Source: a virus. Taken from it: DNA of 39,560 nucleotides. The position numbers and the translations under genes were made by a program. The stretch spans positions 1-39,560 of the IMG/VR virus record IMGVR_UViG_3300009177_000068; one strand, 5' to 3'. Under the pieces are notes generated by a model that searched no databases, was not told the DNA's origin, and was given only the letters and a program-made list of their open reading frames with translations. Below, piece after piece: positions 9,072 to 30,438 of this stretch (positions within the stretch are counted from its first letter, which is position 1; each line of letters opens with the position of its first letter).

Positions 9072-9684
9072 TGCGCTTCATGGCCGCCATCAGAAGTTCT
9101 TCCAGATCGTGGAAGACCGGTGTGTTGTATCGCCGGGCCAGAGCTTCGAGATATTTCGTCTTCGGAGACCCGGCCGGGAAGCCCAAGATTGCCTTGCCGG
9201 ACGCGACCGACAGGCCGAACTCGACGTTGGTCGTGAAGGCGGGCATATCGACAAGGTCCCTCGGAACCCAGAAGACAATCGCGCTGGCGCGATCCAGTCC
9301 GGCCCACTCCCATTCGATCTGGCCATCGTAGTTGTCATGGCTCGCCCAATCCGGTTGCTCGGGCACCAAGACCGTTCCCGCAAAGCGATGCTGGTTGAGG
9401 ATCGCCAGCGCACGCGGGCGCCACGACGGCACGTCTTGGCTGCGCGGGGTGGGACCGGCCAAGAAGATGACCTTGGGAAGCTCCTGAAGGGCGTAGACGA
9501 CGTTCATGCCCAGATTGCTGTCCGTGGGCACATACGGCGCGACATCGGCCTCAGCGGGCTCCGCAGAGGCTTTGTGGCACATTCCACCGCACCATTCGCT
9601 GACTTCGCATGACCACTTCGATGGACAGTTCGGACTAGCCTTGAACGCACCACCAATCGGTTGGCTTTCACGCAGGTCGCCCAT
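9067..9684 (-). CDS. Nucleoside 2-deoxyribosyltransferase-like protein
   Basis: 205 aa. From about residue 70: KVIFLAGPTPR, SWRPRALAIL, GTVLVPEQ, YDGQIEWEWAGLDRASAIVFW and TTNVEFGLSVASGKAILGFP follow the nucleoside 2-deoxyribosyltransferase-like pattern (Rossmann-like fold, GP loop, D..D, E-x-G). Such enzymes move deoxyribose between bases or hydrolyse the glycosidic bond and may serve nucleotide salvage. The N-terminal 65 residues are unrelated and contain three Cys in CEVSEWCGGMC. ATG 9684 has no good Shine-Dalgarno sequence; an internal Met about 10 residues before KVIFLAG is an alternative start. Confidence 0.65.
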   Translation of the reverse strand: MGDLRESQPIGGAFKASPNCPSKWSCEVSEWCGGMCHKASAEPAEADVAPYVPTDSNLGMNVVYALQELPKVIFLAGPTPRSQDVPSWRPRALAILNQHRFAGTVLVPEQPDWASHDNYDGQIEWEWAGLDRASAIVFWVPRDLVDMPAFTTNVEFGLSVASGKAILGFPAGSPKTKYLEALARRYNTPVFHDLEELLMAAMKRT

Positions 9685-10834: not shown

Positions 10835-11136
10835 CCGATTTCGTCCGCAACGACGACGGGTCCTACAGCTTCGGTGTCTGGCAGATCGTGCCGGATGCCG
10901 GGGGCCGCGTTTACGCGGATCAGGCCGCCAAAGCCAAGACGCGTGAGTGGTGGATCGGTAAGAACGACGACACCACGACTGGCGATGCTTGGATTCGCCA
11001 TACGACCAAGACGCTCGCCGAAGCCCGCGAGTGGGTTCTCACCAAGGCGCTGGCGGATGCCGAGACGCTGATCGACATGTTCGATGCCGATCTGGTGAGT
11101 AAGTTCCGCTATCTGATTTGGCAGACGGAAAACTGA
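10831..11136 (+). CDS. Hypothetical protein
   Basis: 101 aa from ATG 10831 (ATGA overlap with the previous gene). MTDFVRNDDGSYSFGVWQIV... looks like beta strands followed by a long helix (TLAEAREWVLTKALADAETL) and ends KFRYLIWQTEN. No family recognised. The stop overlaps the next start as TGATG. Confidence 0.65.
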   Translation: MTDFVRNDDGSYSFGVWQIVPDAGGRVYADQAAKAKTREWWIGKNDDTTTGDAWIRHTTKTLAEAREWVLTKALADAETLIDMFDADLVSKFRYLIWQTEN

Positions 11137-11543
11137 TGGTCGCCATCGCTGCCAAAGACGTAGCCGCCATCTACAACCACGTCTGGGATCACCGGGGTCA
11201 AACTACCACGGTCGCCGGGTTGACGCTCGTTGCGACGCGCCCGAATGCGTTCCGGCTGGTCCGCCAGAAGGGACCATTTCTGGATGAAATTTGGCGGCTG
11301 GAATTCGTCCTCAAGAACGATCACTGGGTCGGCCCGACTGGCGCGATGCGCGAGGGTGAAATCCTGTTCCGTGACTATCACCCGAACACGCACGGGGGTG
11401 GCTGGGGCGCCGTGGACTTCAAGGACTACCAGCGCTGCGGCAAATTCCAGATCAAGAAGGTGAGCGGCGATCTGACTCAGTTCCAAAAGGATTGGGTGAT
11501 GCTGCTCATGTTCCAGCACGAGTTCACGGAAGCCGCCGACTAG
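11136..11543 (+). CDS. Hypothetical protein
   Basis: 135 aa from ATG 11136, overlapping the previous TGA. Mixed alpha/beta sequence with LVATRPNAFRLVRQKGP and a glycine-rich THGGGWGAVDFKDYQ stretch; helical, hydrophobic C-terminus (WVMLLMFQHEF). Not recognised. Its stop overlaps the convergent reverse gene by 4 bp, leaving no room for a terminator. Confidence 0.65.
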   Translation: MVAIAAKDVAAIYNHVWDHRGQTTTVAGLTLVATRPNAFRLVRQKGPFLDEIWRLEFVLKNDHWVGPTGAMREGEILFRDYHPNTHGGGWGAVDFKDYQRCGKFQIKKVSGDLTQFQKDWVMLLMFQHEFTEAAD

Positions 11544-12252: not shown

Positions 12253-14211
12253 TCACTGCAAGTAGAACGAGTGTGACTTCGTCGGGTGACCGACGCTGGT
12301 GACGAACTTGTTCGGAGTGGCCCACGACGGTGTGGCCGCCGACGGGTTCACATACTGCGTGCAGCGCTTGTTGGCCTTGATCGGCGCCACGGCGCTGCTG
12401 CACGGGAAGGTGCCAGCCAGCAGCCTCGACGCGATGTCGTGACAGTGCGCCCATTCCTTGCTGCCCTGCGACGCCTTGATCTTCTCGATGCCACGCTTCT
12501 CGCCAGAGGCGAAGAGCGCTTTGCTCACCGTGAGATGGCCGCCGCTGCGGCTTGCGCCGCCGCCCACGTCGAGTGAGCGACCGTTGGTGGACCAGAAATA
12601 CGAGAACGCCGCATAGGCCAACACATACTTCTTGATGCCCGACCAATCGTCATTCCTGACATTGCCGCCAAAACCGGTGGCGACGCGGTTGATGACCACC
12701 TGACCAACCGCCGATAGCATGTCGTCGCCAAGGCCGCCTGCTTCGGTGAGCAGGCAAACCGTCAGCCACGTCACATCATCATCGGTGATATCCTGCAACG
12801 CGGCTTCGTTCGGAACCACCGACGAATTCGTCACAGAGTTCGCGTCGTCCGTGGACGCAAATTCGTCCGAGCCCTTCAGGTCAGGCTTGTTCGAAGCGTC
12901 GGTGCTGCTGTTCGCGTTGGTGGACGCACCGTTCTTCGGGTGGTGCTGGTAAGGCTCGTGCGTCGGCATACGACGCGTGATCGTCTTGCGGGTGCTCTGA
13001 TCGTAGCAGGGAGCCTCGCCATTGACCTCGGGTAGATCGCGCGGCTTCTCCACCTTGGCGGCCGGAGGATTGGCGGCCGGAGCACCGGTCGAGGAATTGT
13101 CGTGGATGACGGAGGCCGAGCGAATGTTTGCACCAGCCGACGCCGACGTGATGTCGCCACCGGCGCCCAGACGCAGAGTGCCCACGGCGCCGAGAATGAT
13201 GTTGCCGCCTGCGCGGGTGGACGACGTGCCACCGAAGTCGAGCACGAGATCACCGTTGCCCGCAATGTTGGTGTGGTGTGCGCTCTGGATGGTGAGGTTG
13301 CCGCCCGCGCGTAGATTCAGGTTGCCATCGGCCTCGATGTTGAGCGAGCCGTCCGCATGGAGGTTCAGCGAACCTTCCGACCGCAGGCTGACCGAGCCCT
13401 TGCTGTAAACGTCAACGCCCTTGTCGGAGATTTCGACCCACGAGTTGCCGTCCTTCGAGTTGATGTAGACGAAACCGTTGGTCTCGTTGATGAGGACTTG
13501 CGCACCGCTGCGCGTGCGCATCCGAATGAATTCATTGAGCGGATTGTCATCGACATAGACTTGGTTGCCACGCGGGGTGGACCAGCCGTAGACCTTCGAC
13601 GGAGCTTCCCGGCGGGCGCTCGACGTGGACGGCCCGCGCTCGGGGTCGCTGAACAATCCCTGCTGCGACAGACCATTCGCCAGCGGCGTGTAGGCGGCGC
13701 GCTTGGGGTTGTCCGGGTTCTCCTTGGACCACTTGTTGTATTCCGCCACCGGGGGCAGGCTCGAACAATAGTTGCCGTCCTCTGTGGGCGTGCCCACGGC
13801 GATGCCGGGGACCATGTGGTTCATGTTCTGCTGGTAAATGCAGGCGAACCAGAAGCCCAACGCGGTGTCGCCATTGGCGAAACAGACGAGCACTTGGTTT
13901 TCGAGATCGGGCGGGTTCATCCAGAAGCCATAGGACTGCTGGGTGCCGTCGAGGGCCTTCGAATTTTCGACTAGGGCATTGGGGTTGGTCACCCCGGCGA
14001 ACGGGCTCGCATAGCTGACGGTGAACCAGCTTTTCGGATCGTTCGGGTTGCCGCCGATCTCGGGAATCCAGACGGCCAGACGACCCATGCGCTGACCATC
14101 GTCGTTGCGCTTGACGACGCCGACATAGATGTTGCTGTCCCGCACGCGACCCATGTGGGAGTCGCGACGGTAGCCATTGGGGACACGAGTGACGTTGTAG
14201 TTCGGCTTCAT
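12253..14211 (-). CDS. 5: Baseplate central spike gp5 with C-terminal cell-wall hydrolase domain
   Basis: 652 aa, last gene of the baseplate operon, ATGA-coupled to the hub gene. The N-terminal OB-fold region (about 25-165: VGVVKRNDDGQRMGRLAVWIPE, KSWFTVSYASPFAG) matches T4 gp5. Residues about 260-340 contain eight-residue repeats (GSVSLRSE, GSLNLHAD, GSLNIEAD, GNLNLRAG), the triple beta-helix spike. From about 477 to the end, VTWLTVCLLTEAGGLGDDML and AVGQVVINRV match SleB/CwlJ-type hydrolases with the Glu of LTEAGG as likely catalyst. T4 gp5 instead has a lysozyme domain between OB and helix, so the enzyme here differs in both family and position. It should puncture the outer membrane and cut peptidoglycan during entry. 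Confidence 0.85.
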   Translation of the reverse strand: MKPNYNVTRVPNGYRRDSHMGRVRDSNIYVGVVKRNDDGQRMGRLAVWIPEIGGNPNDPKSWFTVSYASPFAGVTNPNALVENSKALDGTQQSYGFWMNPPDLENQVLVCFANGDTALGFWFACIYQQNMNHMVPGIAVGTPTEDGNYCSSLPPVAEYNKWSKENPDNPKRAAYTPLANGLSQQGLFSDPERGPSTSSARREAPSKVYGWSTPRGNQVYVDDNPLNEFIRMRTRSGAQVLINETNGFVYINSKDGNSWVEISDKGVDVYSKGSVSLRSEGSLNLHADGSLNIEADGNLNLRAGGNLTIQSAHHTNIAGNGDLVLDFGGTSSTRAGGNIILGAVGTLRLGAGGDITSASAGANIRSASVIHDNSSTGAPAANPPAAKVEKPRDLPEVNGEAPCYDQSTRKTITRRMPTHEPYQHHPKNGASTNANSSTDASNKPDLKGSDEFASTDDANSVTNSSVVPNEAALQDITDDDVTWLTVCLLTEAGGLGDDMLSAVGQVVINRVATGFGGNVRNDDWSGIKKYVLAYAAFSYFWSTNGRSLDVGGGASRSGGHLTVSKALFASGEKRGIEKIKASQGSKEWAHCHDIASRLLAGTFPCSSAVAPIKANKRCTQYVNPSAATPSWATPNKFVTSVGHPTKSHSFYLQ

Positions 14212-16655
14212 GATTGTCCTGACGACCCCGCGCCGTCGGCAGGCTGGGCCGAAGTCTTGTTGTCTCCGCTGCTCTTGATCGTCGTGATGAGTTCGAGCTT
14301 GATCGCTTCGAGCGTTTGCTTGAATTCGCCGTTCACGAAGTTGCTCTTGACGTTGGTCACCCGGTAGAGACCGTTGAACACGTCATCATCTCGGATGATC
14401 GGCGAACCATCCTGCGCGTTGATGCGGCTCGGGAAGCGCAAGATCAGCGCGAATGTCGAGTCACCCTCCGCGAAATTCGGAAGCGGATCATCGGGGTTGT
14501 GCTTCTGACCACCGGTCAACAGAGCCCGGCGCTCGACGTGCGAGTAACCGATCCAGTAGGGATCGCCGCGAATTTCCAAATTGATCGACGCGAGCGACGC
14601 GGTGACCGGCTCGTAAAGCTGGTTCATGACCGCGCCCGCCAAACTGGCGCCACGATGCCATTGGCCCAAGAATCCGGCCCCGGCGGTGTTGGTCGCCTCG
14701 TCGTGAGCCTGCACGTAGGTCATCTGATCCGGCGTGATATCCGGGCGAGCATCCTCGGCGTAAATGTTGACCGGACCTTGGGCCTCGATCTGTTCGCGCT
14801 GAAGACGTTGGCGCGTAAGGCTTTGGCTCCGGCGCGTGTTTAGCTGACCAGCAATTTCACCCTTGCGGCGGTTCGCGGCTTCGATGACCGCATTAGCTTG
14901 AGCTTTCTGATCCGGCGGTGCAGTCTCGGAGGACACGACGCCTTTTGCCGCGTCGATGTCGGTGTTGAACTGCTGCAACTTCGTCCGAAGCTGGCTGTCC
15001 GAAAGCGGCTGGCCGGGGCCTGCGGTCGTTGACGGGAAATCGCTCCCGGTCATCGCGGAATTGGAGATCAGAGCCGGGTTGCGTTTTTCGTGGTCCGAGA
15101 CTTCGTTGATGCCCGCGCGCCAGCCGGTGAGTTTGGGCATGACGGCCGCGAACGCAAAGTTGTAGTCGAGATCGAAGCGAATGACCTCGGTGTTCATGCC
15201 GGTGAAGCGGTGCTCGTAGCGCTTGCGGAGATAGCCACGCTTGCGAAGCTCGTTGGCGATCCGCACGGGAATGCCGGGATCGTCCTTGATCTTCGTGTAT
15301 TGCTCGGGCGCGATATTGACGGTGTATGAACGATAGCCCCACACGTAGTAGGTGATCTCTTTCATATACTGGCCGGTGATGTCGTCGTAGCCCGTGACTT
15401 TCACGTCGGCTTCGACCATCGGCACGATGGGGACGCGATAATCCTTCTTGTTGTAGGTGATCGACTCACCGCCACCGGCGTCTTCCGTGTCTTGCGCGGA
15501 GTTCGTATCCAGCATCATCTTCTGCGCTTCTTCGGTGTGGCAGTAGAGGAACATGATTACGTCGTTGATCGTCGTCCCGGCCGGAATCTGGGCGTGAGGC
15601 GTCTTCCCGCTGCCCGCGTCGAGCGACAGGTTTCGAATGGGGTCGTATTCGCCCTGCGCCAGCTTGAACGCACCCGCGTCTCGTGTGTCGTCCTGAAGCG
15701 GTAGAACCTTGATCTTGAACTTGTAGATTTCGCCGAGATAGCGTTCCTTCCAAGTCTGGGTGAGCTTGTCCGCGAAATCGTCGCAGAACGATTGAATGGT
15801 GCCGCCGCTGACGCTCAGCACGTCGGGCACCCGGCCGCAGGTTTCGTCTTCAAAGGCGAGCGACGAATAGGGACGGCACGTCAGCTTGTAGTTGGCGCCG
15901 TTCTCATTCATGTTGACTTCCATATTGGCGATGGCGACTTGCCACACCCAGTGGCCGCCATTCTTCAGGTCCATCCCCGCCAACGGGTCGGTGTTGATGG
16001 TCCCGTCCTCGTTGTAGCCAAGGAAAGTCAGTTCGAGGTAATACCAGACCTTGCCGAAGTTCTGGATGCCAAGCTGGATGCCAGCATTCATCATCGACTC
16101 AACGAGGCTCGAACCCAACGGCTCGGTCAGGTTGATGTTGATCTGGGACATGTAGGAGCTACGGTTGCGCCAGCCCGGCCCAATCGTGTGGTCGATCTCC
16201 ACGCTCGTGATGTTGAAGCCCGCCGTCACACCGCTTTCGGCGATGGTGACGTTCGGAATGCTCTTGAGGGTGTTGTAGAGCGACGTGATGTCGTCCGAGC
16301 CCGCACCGGTGACTAGCTCGTGCTCGGTCGTCATGAACAGGCGGAAATGATACGACGGCTGCCGCGTGCTGCTCAGCGCATTCAGATCGTAGTTGTCGTC
16401 GTTCAGAATTTCGAGCAGCGCTTTGTTGGTGGCGGCGCCGACCGTCGTGTTCCCCGTAGCAGTGGAGGTGATGCCGTTCGCAGTCTGCTGCTGTCCGCTG
16501 GGCGCGATTTCTCCCGTGGACGGAAGAGTGTCCATCAGCGAATAGGAAGGTGTGGTTCCACCGGCGACTGGGACGTTGTTGATGCGGCTGGGGGCGGGAG
16601 TATCGTCAGGGATCAACGGTCGGCTGTTTGCTTGCTTTCCACTGTCTATTGTCAT
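14208..16655 (-). CDS. Baseplate hub protein (gp27-like role)
   Basis: 815 aa from ATG 16655, ATGA-coupled to gp53; an upstream in-frame start would add only shadow residues. The N-terminal 90 residues are Ser/Thr/Pro-rich and probably disordered. The middle resembles contractile-tail hub proteins (SYHFRLFMTTEHELVTGAG, ISQININLTEPLG-type strands, VWYYLELTFLGYNEDG), and the end DVFNGLYRVTNVKSNFVNGEF is the typical hub LysM-like/barrel ending. A coiled, Gln/Arg-rich segment near 590-640 is inserted. It is larger than T4 gp27 (391 aa), so it may combine hub and adapter functions. Sits beneath the tube and holds the gp5 spike. Confidence 0.7.
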   Translation of the reverse strand: MTIDSGKQANSRPLIPDDTPAPSRINNVPVAGGTTPSYSLMDTLPSTGEIAPSGQQQTANGITSTATGNTTVGAATNKALLEILNDDNYDLNALSSTRQPSYHFRLFMTTEHELVTGAGSDDITSLYNTLKSIPNVTIAESGVTAGFNITSVEIDHTIGPGWRNRSSYMSQININLTEPLGSSLVESMMNAGIQLGIQNFGKVWYYLELTFLGYNEDGTINTDPLAGMDLKNGGHWVWQVAIANMEVNMNENGANYKLTCRPYSSLAFEDETCGRVPDVLSVSGGTIQSFCDDFADKLTQTWKERYLGEIYKFKIKVLPLQDDTRDAGAFKLAQGEYDPIRNLSLDAGSGKTPHAQIPAGTTINDVIMFLYCHTEEAQKMMLDTNSAQDTEDAGGGESITYNKKDYRVPIVPMVEADVKVTGYDDITGQYMKEITYYVWGYRSYTVNIAPEQYTKIKDDPGIPVRIANELRKRGYLRKRYEHRFTGMNTEVIRFDLDYNFAFAAVMPKLTGWRAGINEVSDHEKRNPALISNSAMTGSDFPSTTAGPGQPLSDSQLRTKLQQFNTDIDAAKGVVSSETAPPDQKAQANAVIEAANRRKGEIAGQLNTRRSQSLTRQRLQREQIEAQGPVNIYAEDARPDITPDQMTYVQAHDEATNTAGAGFLGQWHRGASLAGAVMNQLYEPVTASLASINLEIRGDPYWIGYSHVERRALLTGGQKHNPDDPLPNFAEGDSTFALILRFPSRINAQDGSPIIRDDDVFNGLYRVTNVKSNFVNGEFKQTLEAIKLELITTIKSSGDNKTSAQPADGAGSSGQS

Positions 16656-25389: not shown

Positions 25390-25697
25390 TGCTGGCCGAC
25401 TTCACCATCCATCCGGTCGATCCTCGTGAAGAGGGTTGGGCGCCGGTCGTGCTGTTCAAGCCGATCCGGTATCGAATCTTCCTGAAGGATTCGATGAACT
25501 GGATGGCGAGGCTGACGGCGCGCACCAACTTCGCGAAGCAAATGACGGGTGATGAGGGCTATGACTGGCTCATCACCGAGGACTTCGAAATCTACTGCTC
25601 GACCATCACCTTCCTGATGATGGCCCGGCTGTCCGAGAACGAAGAGTTCGAGACCCTCATCGAGCGGATTGAAGAGCGCAACGACCGCGATGAATGA
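25389..25697 (+). CDS. Hypothetical protein
   Basis: 102 aa from ATG 25389. MLADFTIHPVDPREEGWAPV then a basic/hydrophobic segment (PIRYRIFLKDSMNWMARL) and an acidic C-terminus (NEEFETLIERIEERNDRDE). Not recognised. Its end overlaps the next gene by 8 bp. Confidence 0.65.
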   Translation: MLADFTIHPVDPREEGWAPVVLFKPIRYRIFLKDSMNWMARLTARTNFAKQMTGDEGYDWLITEDFEIYCSTITFLMMARLSENEEFETLIERIEERNDRDE

Positions 25698-26106
25698 TTC
25701 CGATCAACTGCCGTCGAACCGGCCGCCGCCGATAATCGCGAACCCTCGGGGGCATTTCACCCATTCGCTCGGCCTCACCGGCGATCTTGACGAGAATTAC
25801 GTCTCGCCGCGTGTGGTGCTCTGCCGGATCACCAACGACTTCGACCGGGCATCGGAAACCGACATTCTCTATGCCGCCGAGAAGCGAGGCTACATTGACA
25901 AACTGGTAATCGAAGTGCCCGACTTCCAATGGGCGGAAGACCGCGTTAAGGCCATGCTCGCGGCCAAGCATCTTGCCACAAATGACAAGTGGACGTGCTT
26001 CCTGACGTTCGCGATGGGCGTCGGCGATTCCGCCAAGCTCGTGTTCGCGTTCAAGAGCCAAGTGGACCGCTTGCTGTTCAGCATGGAATGGCCGCGTGGG
26101 GATTAA
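25690..26106 (+). CDS. Small-protein paralogue family member (C-terminal F.F...LF.xxW)
   Basis: 138 aa. The N-terminal 30 residues are Pro/Asn-rich. The rest, from VSPRVVLCRITNDF to WTCFLTFAMGVGD and KLVFAFKSQVDRLLFSMEW, follows the layout of the 26117 and 28976 products: a strand, a helix with D-R-V, an aromatic W-T/x strand, then F.F....D..LF..(R/E)W. Function unknown. Confidence 0.65.
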   Translation: MNDSDQLPSNRPPPIIANPRGHFTHSLGLTGDLDENYVSPRVVLCRITNDFDRASETDILYAAEKRGYIDKLVIEVPDFQWAEDRVKAMLAAKHLATNDKWTCFLTFAMGVGDSAKLVFAFKSQVDRLLFSMEWPRGD

Positions 26107-26116
26107 CATCTTCCGC

Positions 26117-26449
26117 ATGGCGATCCCCGTGCATCCCACGCGGTTCCTGCCGCCCACGCAGGCGATGGCCATCACCCAGCAGCGCGCCAACGGCATCGAG
26201 CACGAAGAAACCTTGGCGCACCTCGAAGAGACCGGCTACCTGTATGTCTGCCGATTCAAGGAGAAATACGTGACCCGAGCGGCAGATCGTGTAGCGGCTT
26301 TCTGCGAGACCATTTACGTGCCGTTCAACGACTACTGGACGCTTTTCTACGTCTCCCGTGACTTCAGTAATTCGGGCCAAGGCGAGATCATGGCCGGGTT
26401 CAAAGACCGGAACGATTGGCTGATGTTCAAGCTGCTTTTCGAGCACTAA
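26117..26449 (+). CDS. Small-protein paralogue family member
   Basis: 110 aa from ATG 26117; GTG 26096 would add seven residues and overlap the upstream gene. Layout: MAIPVHPTRFLPPTQAMAIT, then YLYVCRFKEKYVTRAADRVA, YWTLFYVSRDF, and finally AGFKDRNDWLMFKLLFEH. The end matches the shared F.D..D..(M/F)FK(L/M) motif. Function unknown. Confidence 0.65.
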   Translation: MAIPVHPTRFLPPTQAMAITQQRANGIEHEETLAHLEETGYLYVCRFKEKYVTRAADRVAAFCETIYVPFNDYWTLFYVSRDFSNSGQGEIMAGFKDRNDWLMFKLLFEH

Positions 26450-27827: not shown

Positions 27828-28175
27828 ATGAGCAACATCGTCACCATTGATCTGGATGCCGTCGTCCACGACAACGAGCAGTGGTATGACGAGGTGCTCG
27901 CGCCCGCCCTGCTGAAGATCGCCGAAGAGATGCAGCAGCGCGGCTTGGGCTTCCTCGCCTCCGTCGAATACAATCCCAATGAGTTCGGCACCACGCTCAA
28001 CGGCGTGGGCAAGAAGTCCGACGCCCTGCGTCTCGGCTACTACGGCGCGCGGTCGCACGGTAACATCGACTCCGTCGCGATCCAGTGGGTGCGCGAGGCC
28101 CGCGAGGCCGGTCGCGCCCATAACTCCATCGTCATGAACTCCATGGGTTTGGACCCGGACCCGGCCAAACGCTGA
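27828..28175 (+). CDS. Hypothetical protein
   Basis: 115 aa. MSNIVTIDLDAVVHDNEQWY..., helix VLAPALLKIAEEMQQRGLGF, then strands and a basic helix (VREAREAGRAHNSIV). No family recognised. TGATG junction with the next gene. Confidence 0.65.
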   Translation: MSNIVTIDLDAVVHDNEQWYDEVLAPALLKIAEEMQQRGLGFLASVEYNPNEFGTTLNGVGKKSDALRLGYYGARSHGNIDSVAIQWVREAREAGRAHNSIVMNSMGLDPDPAKR

Positions 28176-28381
28176 TGTGGACGGTCACGCGCACACCCGC
28201 CGGTGAATACGAGTGCCACGACGGCACTCGTCTGCGCGCGATCATCCAGAAGGATTCGGCCAAGTCATGGCGGGTGACGCGCATCAACTCGATGGGTGGC
28301 AACACCGGCGCCGACACCTTCCACACGTTCGCGGAGGCGAAATCGTTCGTCACCGAGCGACCGGGCATCTGGGGCGTGTGA
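28175..28381 (+). CDS. Small hypothetical protein
   Basis: 68 aa. MWTVTRTPAGEYECHDGTRL, then WRVTRINSMGG and FHTFAEAKSFVTERPG: strand, strand, helix, like a small beta-sheet protein. Function unknown. Confidence 0.65.
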   Translation: MWTVTRTPAGEYECHDGTRLRAIIQKDSAKSWRVTRINSMGGNTGADTFHTFAEAKSFVTERPGIWGV

Positions 28382-28720
28382 ATGCGACACAGTCCACGCA
28401 ACAGCAGTCCGCTTGATTTCCGTCCAAAATATTTCGCGTGTCTGTGTGACCAACCCAATGTCTCGGTGCCCTCCGAGAATTTCCTCATTGGTGATCCGAC
28501 CAGAGAGCCGTGGGAGTTGCCCGCCGAATGCGTGAAGTGGCTCGAAGAGAACGTTGGCCCCGAGAGTGATACGCCGGAACTCACCGACGGCGGCGCGTGG
28601 AACTGGGCCATAGACGAACTCTACCCGGCGGAAATCACGAAGATGACTGACCGTTTCGCGGCCCATTTCGTGTTTGCCGATATGAAGGCCGCAGCCCTCT
28701 TCAAAATGGTATGGGGCTGA
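28382..28720 (+). CDS. Small-protein paralogue family member
   Basis: 112 aa, ATG 28382 directly after the preceding TGA. It contains a variable N-terminal half (LPAECVKWLEENVGPESD) and ends FAAHFVFADMKAAALFKMVW-G, the C-terminal signature shared with the products of 2105, 26117, 28976 and the reverse 34822 gene. Last gene before a 255-bp gap with the tRNA-like RNA. Confidence 0.65.
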   Translation: MRHSPRNSSPLDFRPKYFACLCDQPNVSVPSENFLIGDPTREPWELPAECVKWLEENVGPESDTPELTDGGAWNWAIDELYPAEITKMTDRFAAHFVFADMKAAALFKMVWG

Positions 28721-28734
28721 TCTCGTAAACGAAA

Positions 28735-28763
28735 TTGCATTCCCCCAAGTATGACCGTATGAT
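28735..28763 (+). promoter_or_regulatory. Candidate promoter for the tRNA-like RNA and tyrS
   Basis: TTGCAT (28735-28740), 17-bp spacer, TATGAT (28758-28763). Transcription would begin near 28770, ahead of the structured region. Confidence 0.5.
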
Positions 28764-28800
28764 GATGGTCTCAGACTTGACGGCGTGGGAGTCCTAGCAC

Positions 28801-28928
28801 GCGGGAATGGTGGAATCTGGCATACACTACGGTGTGGGTAAGGCCCCTCACTGTTGTCGGGACAATCGGGCGACCGATCCCGGCTGCCTAACATGCGGGT
28901 GTTTGCTGGTTCGAAACCAGCTTCGCGA
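28801..28928 (+). ncRNA. tRNA-like structured RNA (Leu/class II-like), possibly a tyrS leader
   Basis: Candidate D arm at 28810-28827: GTG/CAC stem around GAATCTGGCATA, very like class II (Leu) tRNAs. T arm at 28905-28921: GCTGG-TTCGAAA-CCAGC. Flanks GCGGGAA (28801-28807) and TTCGCGA (28922-28928) pair at five of seven positions. The total of 128 nt is far beyond a normal tRNA (about 75-95). Where the anticodon arm should be, ACGGT runs straight into GTGGG-TAAGGCCC-CTCAC, which looks like a class II variable arm. An extra hairpin follows, CGGG-aca-ATCGG-GCGA-CCGAT-CCCG (28858-28882), with a GNRA loop. No standard anticodon loop can be assigned. It may be a decayed tRNA, a tRNA with an insertion, or a tRNA-mimic leader. 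It lies in front of the 28976-tyrS operon. Confidence 0.45.
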
Positions 28929-28975
28929 TTGGCATGTGATTGCCGGGGTGACGACCGGCTCAAGGATGAGAACTG

Positions 28976-29215
28976 ATGGTGGTGAAGAGCTACGACCCGG
29001 TTACGATGAAAGTTGCCGCCGAATATCCTTTTGAAGTGACGGTCCAATCGGACGCCGATGTAATGATAGAAATGATGGAGTGGTGTGAAGCCAACTGCGT
29101 CCGGTTTTGGATGTTCGGCCCAACTCTACCCATCAAAGTTTTTGAGACGTGGACCTACTTCATCGCTTTCCAAGACGACCAAGACGCGATGTTTTTCAAG
29201 ATGCGGTGGCAATGA
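28976..29215 (+). CDS. Small-protein paralogue family member, coupled to tyrS
   Basis: 79 aa. VTVQSDADVMIEMMEWCEAN, then KVFETWTYFIAFQDDQDAMF and FKMRWQ at the end: the clearest example of the family layout (helix D-x-V..., W-T-Y-F-I strand, F.DD.DA..FKMRW). The TGA overlaps the tyrS ATG (ATGA). Function unknown. Confidence 0.7.
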   Translation: MVVKSYDPVTMKVAAEYPFEVTVQSDADVMIEMMEWCEANCVRFWMFGPTLPIKVFETWTYFIAFQDDQDAMFFKMRWQ

Positions 29216-30438
29216 ATTCTGACCTGATCCGAACGCTCAACGAGCGAGGTTTTATCAACCAAGCGACCAACCTCGAAGGTTTGGATGCGCTTACTGCTGA
29301 GCGCAAGATCACCGGCTACATCGGCTTTGACCTGACGGCCGATAGCCTGCATGTCGGCTCGCTGATCCAGATCATGGTGCTGCGCCATCTCGCCGCCTTT
29401 GGCCACGAGCCGCTCATCCTGCTGGGTGAGGCCACGACGCGCGTGGGCGACCCTTCCGGTAAGACGGCCTCCCGGCCGATGCTGACCACCGCCCAGATCG
29501 AGCACAACAAGCAGGGCATCGAGAAAGTGTTCCGCAAGCTGGTGGACAAGCCCGTCTTCGTGTCGAACAGCGCATGGTTCAACGACGACACCACGCTCTT
29601 CGACTACCTGCATTCCTACGGCCCGCATTTCTCCATCAACCGGATGCTGACCTTCGATTCGGTCAAGTCCCGACTGCGTGGCGACAAGAGCCTGTCGTTC
29701 CTCGAATTCAACTACATGCTGATGCAGGCCATCGACTTCTACAAGCTGTCGATCCTCTCAGACTGCGCGCTGCAAATCGGTGGCTCCGACCAGTGGGGCA
29801 ACATCATCAACGGCGTCGAACTCGTCCGTCGAAAGGAGGGCCGGGAAGTCTTTGGCTTCACGACCCCGCTGATGACGAACTCGGCTGGCGAGAAGATGGG
29901 CAAGACCGCCGACGGCGCCATCTGGCTCGACCCTGACAAGACATCGGCTTTCGAGTTCTGGCAGTTCTGGCGCAACGTCGAAGACGTGAAGGTCGGAGAA
30001 TTCCTCCGGCTGTTCACCGACGTGCCTATGGACGAGATCACTCGCCTCGAAATCCTCGGCGGGTCCGAACTGAACGAGGCCAAGAAAATTTTGGCCACGG
30101 AAGTCACCGCCATGGTCCACGGCCGCGCCACGGCCAATCACTCGGCGCTGCTGGCTGGCGGCGGCCGTGTCGAGCCGTGCCCCGACAGTATGCCGATGCA
30201 CATCATTCCGGCGCAGGTTTGGAATGGTGGCGTGACGCTCGCGCAAATCTTGCTGGACGCCAAGCTGGTGACCTCCAAGGGCGAGGCCGACCGCATGGCC
30301 GCCAATGACGGCGTCAAGATCAACGGGCACGTCGTGAATGAAGTGCGCACGGTCCTCCCGCGCGCCGCGTTCGAGGACAGCAATTTCCTGCTCTCAGTCG
30401 GCAAGAAGAAGATGGTCGCCGTGAGGATCGAAGACTGA
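29212..30438 (+). CDS. tyrS: Tyrosyl-tRNA synthetase, full length
   Basis: 408 aa from ATG 29212; bacterial TyrRS is about 400-430 aa. Class I catalytic signatures: ADSLHVGS (HIGH motif, 47-50), IGFDLTADS for tyrosine and ATP binding, GGSDQWGNIINGVEL (190-204), and EKMGKTADG (KMSKS equivalent KMGKT, 228-232). The C-terminal portion has an anticodon-binding helical region and an S4-like domain (VTLAQILLDAKL, DGVKINGHVV). All key residues seem present, so it should charge tRNA-Tyr. Complete aminoacyl-tRNA synthetases are uncommon in phages. Composition does not differ obviously from neighbours. It is flanked by phage-type small genes and coupled on both sides (ATGA, TGATG). Confidence 0.92.
   Translation: MNSDLIRTLNERGFINQATNLEGLDALTAERKITGYIGFDLTADSLHVGSLIQIMVLRHLAAFGHEPLILLGEATTRVGDPSGKTASRPMLTTAQIEHNKQGIEKVFRKLVDKPVFVSNSAWFNDDTTLFDYLHSYGPHFSINRMLTFDSVKSRLRGDKSLSFLEFNYMLMQAIDFYKLSILSDCALQIGGSDQWGNIINGVELVRRKEGREVFGFTTPLMTNSAGEKMGKTADGAIWLDPDKTSAFEFWQFWRNVEDVKVGEFLRLFTDVPMDEITRLEILGGSELNEAKKILATEVTAMVHGRATANHSALLAGGGRVEPCPDSMPMHIIPAQVWNGGVTLAQILLDAKLVTSKGEADRMAANDGVKINGHVVNEVRTVLPRAAFEDSNFLLSVGKKKMVAVRIED

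Follow-up and report, generated by a model that had tools for sequence, protein, structure and literature searches.

The window analysed here is a complete IMG/VR record (39,560 bases). PHROG matches to a T4-type baseplate hub, to SbcC/SbcD-like proteins and to portal proteins indicate that it is part of a tailed phage genome. The nearest named-phage relatives of its SbcC-like protein are the jumbo phages Sinorhizobium phage Phosso and Agrobacterium phage Atu_ph07; the source is a large, T4-like phage whose nearest named relatives, judged by this protein, are alphaproteobacterial jumbo phages. In another part of the window, positions 2397–2703 resemble, with 65% nucleotide similarity, a gene of a Tunturiibacter phage that carries the annotation ADP-ribosyltransferase. 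The region of interest is a 255-bp gap (28721–28975) between two open reading frames, 28382–28720 and 28976–29215, of which the second leads into a gene for a tyrosyl-tRNA synthetase (TyrRS). We found one relative of this locus, a 149-kb viral contig (L002) whose TyrRS is 84% identical. The genes around the gap are:

28382–28720: upstream open reading frame, preceding the gap
28976–29215, plus strand: ORF1, 79 aa, of no family; reading frame kept in L002
29212–30438, plus strand: tyrS, tyrosyl-tRNA synthetase, 408 aa; Pfam tRNA-synt_1b (E=8.8e-67) and SYY C-terminal domain; 84% identical in L002

PHROG and Pfam searches with ORF1 gave no match, and we judged it to be a real gene because its reading frame is kept in L002. 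Its stop codon and the tyrS start codon overlap in the sequence ATGA (29212–29215), a usual arrangement for translational coupling. Similar C-terminal motifs (LFKMVWG, FFKMRWQ, LFSMEWP and MFKLLFE) occur in the small proteins encoded at 25669–26106, 26096–26449, 28382–28720 and 28976–29215; the proteins with such ends, ORF1 included, are perhaps a paralogous family.

The gap contains a 128-nt tRNA-like element (28801–28928), as the initial annotation had described. That annotation took the 128 nt as the unit; the conserved unit proved larger and spans 28767–28975. Its parts, together with a promoter-like site in front of it, are:

28735–28763, plus strand: promoter-like site TTGCAT-17-TATGAT, 8/12 consensus letters; the aligned L002 site is TTGCAA-17-TAATAT
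28767–28975, plus strand: conserved leader RNA, about 209 nt, from the predicted 5' end to just before the ORF1 start codon
28767–28780, plus strand: 5' strand of helix P0, GGTCTCA-GA-CTTGA, predicted to pair with 28960–28974 in 12 pairs with a GA/GA internal loop
28783–28802, plus strand: hairpin P1, GCGTG/CACGC, overlapping the first two acceptor bases; paired letters the same in both phages
28801–28807, plus strand: 5' strand of the acceptor-like stem, GCGGGAA, 5/7 pairs with 28922–28928
28810–28827, plus strand: Leu-type D arm, GTG / GAATCTGGCATA / CAC, named for its likeness to the tRNA-Leu D arm
28829–28854, plus strand: hairpin A, loop UAAGGC (UAAGGA in L002), 9 pairs, two of them changed on both sides
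28858–28882, plus strand: hairpin B, variable-arm-like, with a GCGA (GNRA) tetraloop, 9 pairs, one double change and one change to wobble
28883–28899, plus strand: hairpin C, anticodon-arm-like, GCTGC-CTAACAT-GCGGG, loop CUAACAU; invariant
28891–28896 and 28932–28937 (span 28891–28937), plus strand: alternative helix P5, ACAUGC/GCAUGU, which carries the T arm and excludes hairpin C; invariant in L002
28905–28921, plus strand: T arm, GCTGG-TTCGAAA-CCAGC, perfect; conserved except for one loop base
28922–28928, plus strand: 3' strand of the acceptor-like stem, TTCGCGA, with no CCA after it
28942–28959, plus strand: hairpin D, GCCGG/CCGGC, with one C-G pair changed to U-G in L002
28960–28974, plus strand: 3' strand of helix P0, including the Shine-Dalgarno sequence AAGGA (28962–28966)

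The promoter candidate proposed in the initial annotation holds only in part: TTGCAT-17-TATGAT scores below the cut-off of the promoter scan, although a site of the same form stands at that place in L002. No repeated promoter motif was found across the window.

Within the element the order is GCGGGAA, T8, G9, D arm, hairpins A, B and C, TGTTT, T arm, TTCGCGA and a final T, which occupies position 73; CCA is not encoded. Three features named in the initial annotation are present: the Leu-like D arm (TGGTGGAATCTGGCATACAC) shares 95% identity over 20 nt with a real phage tRNA-Leu D arm, the T arm is perfect, and a hairpin with a GNRA loop lies at 28858–28882. The elbow letters, GG in the D loop and UUCGA in the T loop (sought as UUCRA), are kept in both phages. 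The acceptor-like stem forms 5/7 pairs in both phages, with mismatches at G1-A72 and G4-G69. Hairpin C has 4/5 pairs, U33 and A37 and is followed by a 5-nt variable loop of class I size. The absence of a proper anticodon arm, as first reported, is only partly right, holding for the position directly after the D arm: the anticodon-arm-like hairpin C adjoins the T arm.

The element was compared with the known classes of tRNA-like RNA. ARAGORN called neither a tRNA nor a tmRNA in it, and Rfam gave no match at the gathering threshold and nothing tRNA-like at E<=10. Against the Rfam tRNA model (RF00005) the element scores 10.9 bits, where the cut-off is 29. The anticodon arm of a tRNA follows straight after the D arm, while here hairpins A and B intervene, and the 7-bp acceptor stem of a tRNA is reduced to 5/7 pairs. 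Neither ARAGORN nor Rfam gave a tmRNA match, and Rfam gave no T-box match even at E<=10. T-box leaders resemble the phage leader in being leader RNAs of synthetase operons, but T-boxes bind tRNA and do not mimic it, whereas the phage leader is itself tRNA-like. Candidate anticodon loops are the GUAA of hairpin A, with its G in the closing pair, and loop C, where AAC stands in place of the anticodon; neither matches the standard loop for Tyr. The identity of a tRNA-Tyr is not clear in the element either, which has G1-A72 rather than G1-C72, T73 rather than A73, and a Leu-type D arm.

These features bear on whether the element could be a translating tRNA whose D and anticodon arms are separated by about 54 nt of insert or intron, with AAC, by position, as a Val-like anticodon. 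Hairpin C reads as an anticodon arm in our test, as do 12/60 of the listed class-I-type long genes described below, where shuffles would give about 1.8. When the element is turned into a covariance model, positions 87–124 of that model, covering hairpin C and the T arm, match ordinary tRNAs; we therefore take the 3' part to be the 3' half of a tRNA whose variable loop is of class I size. Lak megaphages have been reported to carry introns in their tRNA genes (PMC6784885) and offer a parallel as phage tRNA-type genes interrupted by extra sequence; unlike these, the leader gives no sign that its hairpins are removed, has an imperfect acceptor and forms part of an mRNA leader. Joined exons would not make a complete tRNA: removing 28829–28882 leaves both acceptor mismatches, a G27-G43 mismatch and T73. 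A34, the missing CCA, a Leu-type D arm combined with a Val-like loop, the low score against the tRNA model and the conservation of the flanks also speak against translation, and we consider this reading improbable.

In the relative L002 the element occupies the corresponding position, with ORF1 and tyrS again following it, which supports the original description of a phage TyrRS operon preceded by a tRNA-like RNA. Upstream of the leader the two phages have different genes (window 28173–28716), while leader, ORF1 and tyrS are kept, as if travelling as a cassette. In the alignment of the two phages, which covers 28732–28995, 188/212 aligned leader positions are identical (88.7%), compared with 79/167 (47%) of the fourfold sites in the tyrS gene next to it; a Fisher test that treats sites as independent gives P about 1e-18. 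Leader identity so far above that of the tyrS fourfold sites argues for a functional RNA leader and not a decaying tRNA.

A decayed tRNA gene had been one of the explanations offered at the outset, and the strong purifying selection rejects it. In its wider form, as a decaying tRNA gene or a tRNA-Leu fused with another tRNA and now without function, this explanation is highly improbable, since the helices are compensated as well; it is plausible as an origin, not as the present state. As such an origin it would account for the Leu-like 5' half, for the 3' half resembling another tRNA and for the mismatched acceptor. More distant phages, with TyrRS at 40% identity, have tRNA arrays next to tyrS; this agrees with a leader that arose from a tRNA and would make a remnant at this place unsurprising. 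The simplest origin that we infer from the sequence would be a tRNA gene with extra hairpins between its D and anticodon arms. A fusion with the tRNA-Val of L002's own contig was considered and dropped, that tRNA not being a close match.

Conservation is uneven along the alignment. Identity is 18/35 (51%) in the promoter region and 34/35 (97%) over 28767–28800; the core has 112/130 identical positions, and the 3' flank, which reaches the start codon, has 42/47. The first 34 nt of the leader, which precede the tRNA-like core, are therefore its most conserved part. Conservation begins just past the -10-like box of the promoter-like site and continues into the ORF1 start codon, which argues for a leader rather than a free 128-nt RNA. 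The two phages differ in this leader by four indels, each of one base, and thus no reading frame is conserved through it. This weighs against the view that the conserved feature is a translated upstream frame, encoding a leader peptide or an N-terminal extension of ORF1. Such a frame is open in L002 from 2462 through the leader into ORF1, and the window has an overlapping frame of 75 codons, but the latter is not joined to ORF1, and half of the core differences fall in paired columns, where they are compensated. We regard a translated frame as very improbable.

The structure of the core is conserved between the phages as well. All 35 proposed core pairs hold in both, with four double changes, one change to wobble and none broken; the five varied pairs are all kept. 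The double changes replace acceptor pair G3-C70 by A-U, two pairs of hairpin A (A-U by G-C and C-G by G-U) and one of hairpin B (U-A by G-C). When partner columns are slid by 1–3 positions, pairing falls to 35–48%, the structure itself having been derived from the same two sequences. A two-sequence shuffle control reaches the observed pair values in 39/500 cases, so the compensated pairs count as support and not as proof. The two sequences do not differ in P0, P1, hairpin C or the stems of the D and T arms, which hence carry no covariation signal. Folding-energy z scores are only moderately unusual, at -2.69 for the core and -2.15 for the leader (RNAfold).

Searches beyond L002 returned little. 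Window positions 28700–29230 had no match among phage records, the exact 24-nt D-arm pattern did not occur in the viral contigs, and scans of genome contigs with the D-to-T pattern and with a 24-mer from hairpin C and the T arm found nothing. Viral scans with hairpin C plus T arm and with a 20-mer from the 5' leader recovered only the L002 contig and one ordinary tRNA-Arg. Run against 26 related phage records, the covariance model gave a full strong match only to the L002 contig, the rest being matches to ordinary tRNAs. No such leader lies directly upstream of tyrS in L003–L010, whose TyrRS proteins are relatives at 40–60% identity, and at three annotated phage tyrS loci there is no upstream gap of the leader's length. 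A literature search found no paper describing the element.

To assess how the leader might act, we predicted its folding. RNAfold predicts helix P0 (GGUCUCA-GA-CUUGA with UCAAG-GA-UGAG-A-ACU; -17.7 kcal/mol) for each of the two sequences, and alifold predicts it for the pair; in this prediction the AAG of the Shine-Dalgarno sequence is paired. Pairings as stable or better arose in 27/2000 shuffles of the 5' strand and at 108/4942 other window positions, giving this predicted helix a moderate significance of about 0.014–0.02. When the first 15 nt are removed, the predicted unpaired probability of the three AAG bases rises to 0.43, 0.91 and 0.89 in the window; in L002 the Shine-Dalgarno sequence is only partly freed.

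Two sets of folds partly exclude each other: the tRNA-like core (acceptor, D arm, hairpin C and T arm) and a set with P1 and P5, with hairpins A and B common to both. Each set taken with P0 (52 pairs for the tRNA-like set and 65 for the alternative) has no pair broken in either phage. For the full leader RNAfold favours the non-tRNA-like fold by about 11 kcal/mol, in an energy model that leaves tertiary contacts outside, and in the predicted fold of the isolated core the D and T strands cross-pair. The compensated acceptor pair separates the two sets and favours the tRNA-like core. The competing folds proposed initially hold in altered form: the ACAC-UACG-GUGU hairpin falters, because its UNCG loop is AGGG in L002 and so is not conserved, and its loop positions are those at which double changes support hairpin A, but a switch is possible through other helices, with hairpin C and the acceptor-like stem opposed to P1 and the ACAUGC/GCAUGU helix.

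The element also has counterparts elsewhere in phages. We scanned viral contigs for a Leu-type D arm, 60–90 nt and a T loop, with the acceptor outside the pattern, and kept elements with a perfect T stem, at least 4 acceptor pairs and no ordinary ARAGORN call. At least 67 distinct elements resulted (the window and L002 included), at least 60 of them with 7/7 acceptor pairs, and a control scan with class I D arms added at least 57 further elements. The total is at least 120 distinct phage tRNA-like genes with 50–90 nt between D and T arms (L011–L129, L232–L351), at least 110 of them with 7/7 acceptor pairs. LeuRS does not need the anticodon; a Leu-specific cause of the group was nevertheless rejected, as the class I control yields the same kind of genes. 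Among the matches listed, no specific neighbour gene is shared by the group and none of the elements is a tmRNA; the Rfam tRNA model accepts several members, with inserts. The window element has the same architecture as this group and differs from it by its imperfect acceptor and conserved flanks.

Such a group lends substance to the idea that tRNA-processing enzymes release the element from the transcript as a tRNA-like RNA of its own that acts in trans, its position before tyrS being incidental. Besides the sheer number of Leu-type and class-I-type genes with full acceptor stems, many members have no other tRNA in the locus examined, and, among the matches listed, endonuclease-like genes are the only neighbours that recur. 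A perfect T arm (CCGGG-TTCGAAT-CCCGG, then an acceptor-like strand) also ends the stable RNA species 1 of phage T4 (rnaC), which like the element is longer than a tRNA; it differs in lying in a tRNA cluster, in having no Leu-type D arm and in preceding no synthetase gene. Against a trans-acting role, most listed group members have a full acceptor stem, compared with 5/7 pairs and T73 here, and both flanks, as far as the ORF1 Shine-Dalgarno sequence and start codon, equal or exceed the core in conservation, which a free RNA would not need. We consider it unlikely, while giving it real weight.

To our knowledge, the regulation of the synthetase genes carried by some large phages has been little studied. 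The reading we favour, with a probability of about one half, is a cis-acting leader derived from a tRNA-type gene, with the Shine-Dalgarno sequence held by P0 and tyrS coupled through ORF1. A tRNA-type gene would have been taken over, with hairpins A and B separating its D arm from hairpin C. The 5' end would, in the ground state, pair around the ORF1 Shine-Dalgarno sequence and limit ribosome entry; translation of tyrS would be coupled to that of ORF1 via the ATGA overlap, and a factor recognising the tRNA-like core would stabilise or open the P0 arrangement. P0, the occlusion of the Shine-Dalgarno sequence and the transcript start are predictions, and regulation by the leader is a further inference; on this model the leader probably controls the ORF1–tyrS operon. 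A tRNA-derived leader, if real, would show that phages turn tRNA genes into regulators of mRNA, as the thrS operator has long led people to suspect.

The most economical candidate for the factor would be the operon's own TyrRS, giving a thrS-like feedback. The E. coli thrS operator imitates the L-shape of tRNA, and its mimics of the anticodon arm are what its own synthetase binds (PMC9976931). In both systems the 5' UTR of an aminoacyl-tRNA synthetase operon contains a tRNA-like structure, and the leader is thrS-like in this arrangement, with thrS-type binding and repression by its own synthetase a candidate only. The thrS operator mimics anticodon arms and has no acceptor equivalent, whereas the phage leader has recognisable D and T arms; it belongs to a phage and to Tyr rather than Thr, and a small ORF precedes the phage tyrS. 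Regulation of TyrRS by tRNA mimicry, as the initial annotation suggested, is plausible given a Shine-Dalgarno sequence in a predicted helix and the overlap with tyrS. That TyrRS itself is the ligand is a tentative guess from location and the thrS analogy, with the odds against it: the element has no tRNA-Tyr identity set and the other phage tyrS genes examined have no such leader. Doubtful, too, is the fuller proposal that a phage tRNA gene became a TyrRS-responsive translational operator in which TyrRS, or uncharged tRNA competing for TyrRS, decides between a hidden and an open Shine-Dalgarno sequence; it would be an independent, tRNA-gene-derived counterpart of the E. coli thrS operator.

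The long-middle tRNA-like genes are not called as ordinary tRNAs by the standard finder ARAGORN, and they bear on a long-standing question, the role of stable phage RNAs like T4 species 1. T4 rnaC itself (L136:1409–1547, NC_000866) may belong with these long RNAs. Phage locus L256 has four long tRNA-type genes, of which three, on the minus strand at 9329–9444, 11061–11173 and 11301–11413, are paralogues with different acceptor stems that share the hairpin GGNCATGTCCGTGNCC and, after it, the motif CAGCAA or CTGCAA; the fourth, at 12328–12454, has 55 extra nt in its variable region instead. A hairpin and then an ACAGCAA-like motif between D arm and anticodon-like arm mark a subfamily with members in L242, L249, L253, L256, L261, L274, L283, L287, L295, L302, L307, L318, L320, L335 and L342. 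Genes of tRNA-Leu type, mostly with a UAA anticodon and with a 47–51-nt insert in the anticodon loop, occur in L104, L122, L039, L062, L047, L049, L076 and L088, and have the letters CAGTG...CAGCAC...ACCA in common. On the phage contig L084, a Leu-type long tRNA-like gene (1480–1604) lies about 130 nt downstream of an Rfam tmRNA match (992–1347). Near the tRNA array of the phage contig L256 there is also a HEARO RNA (HNH endonuclease-associated RNA), at 14095–14337.
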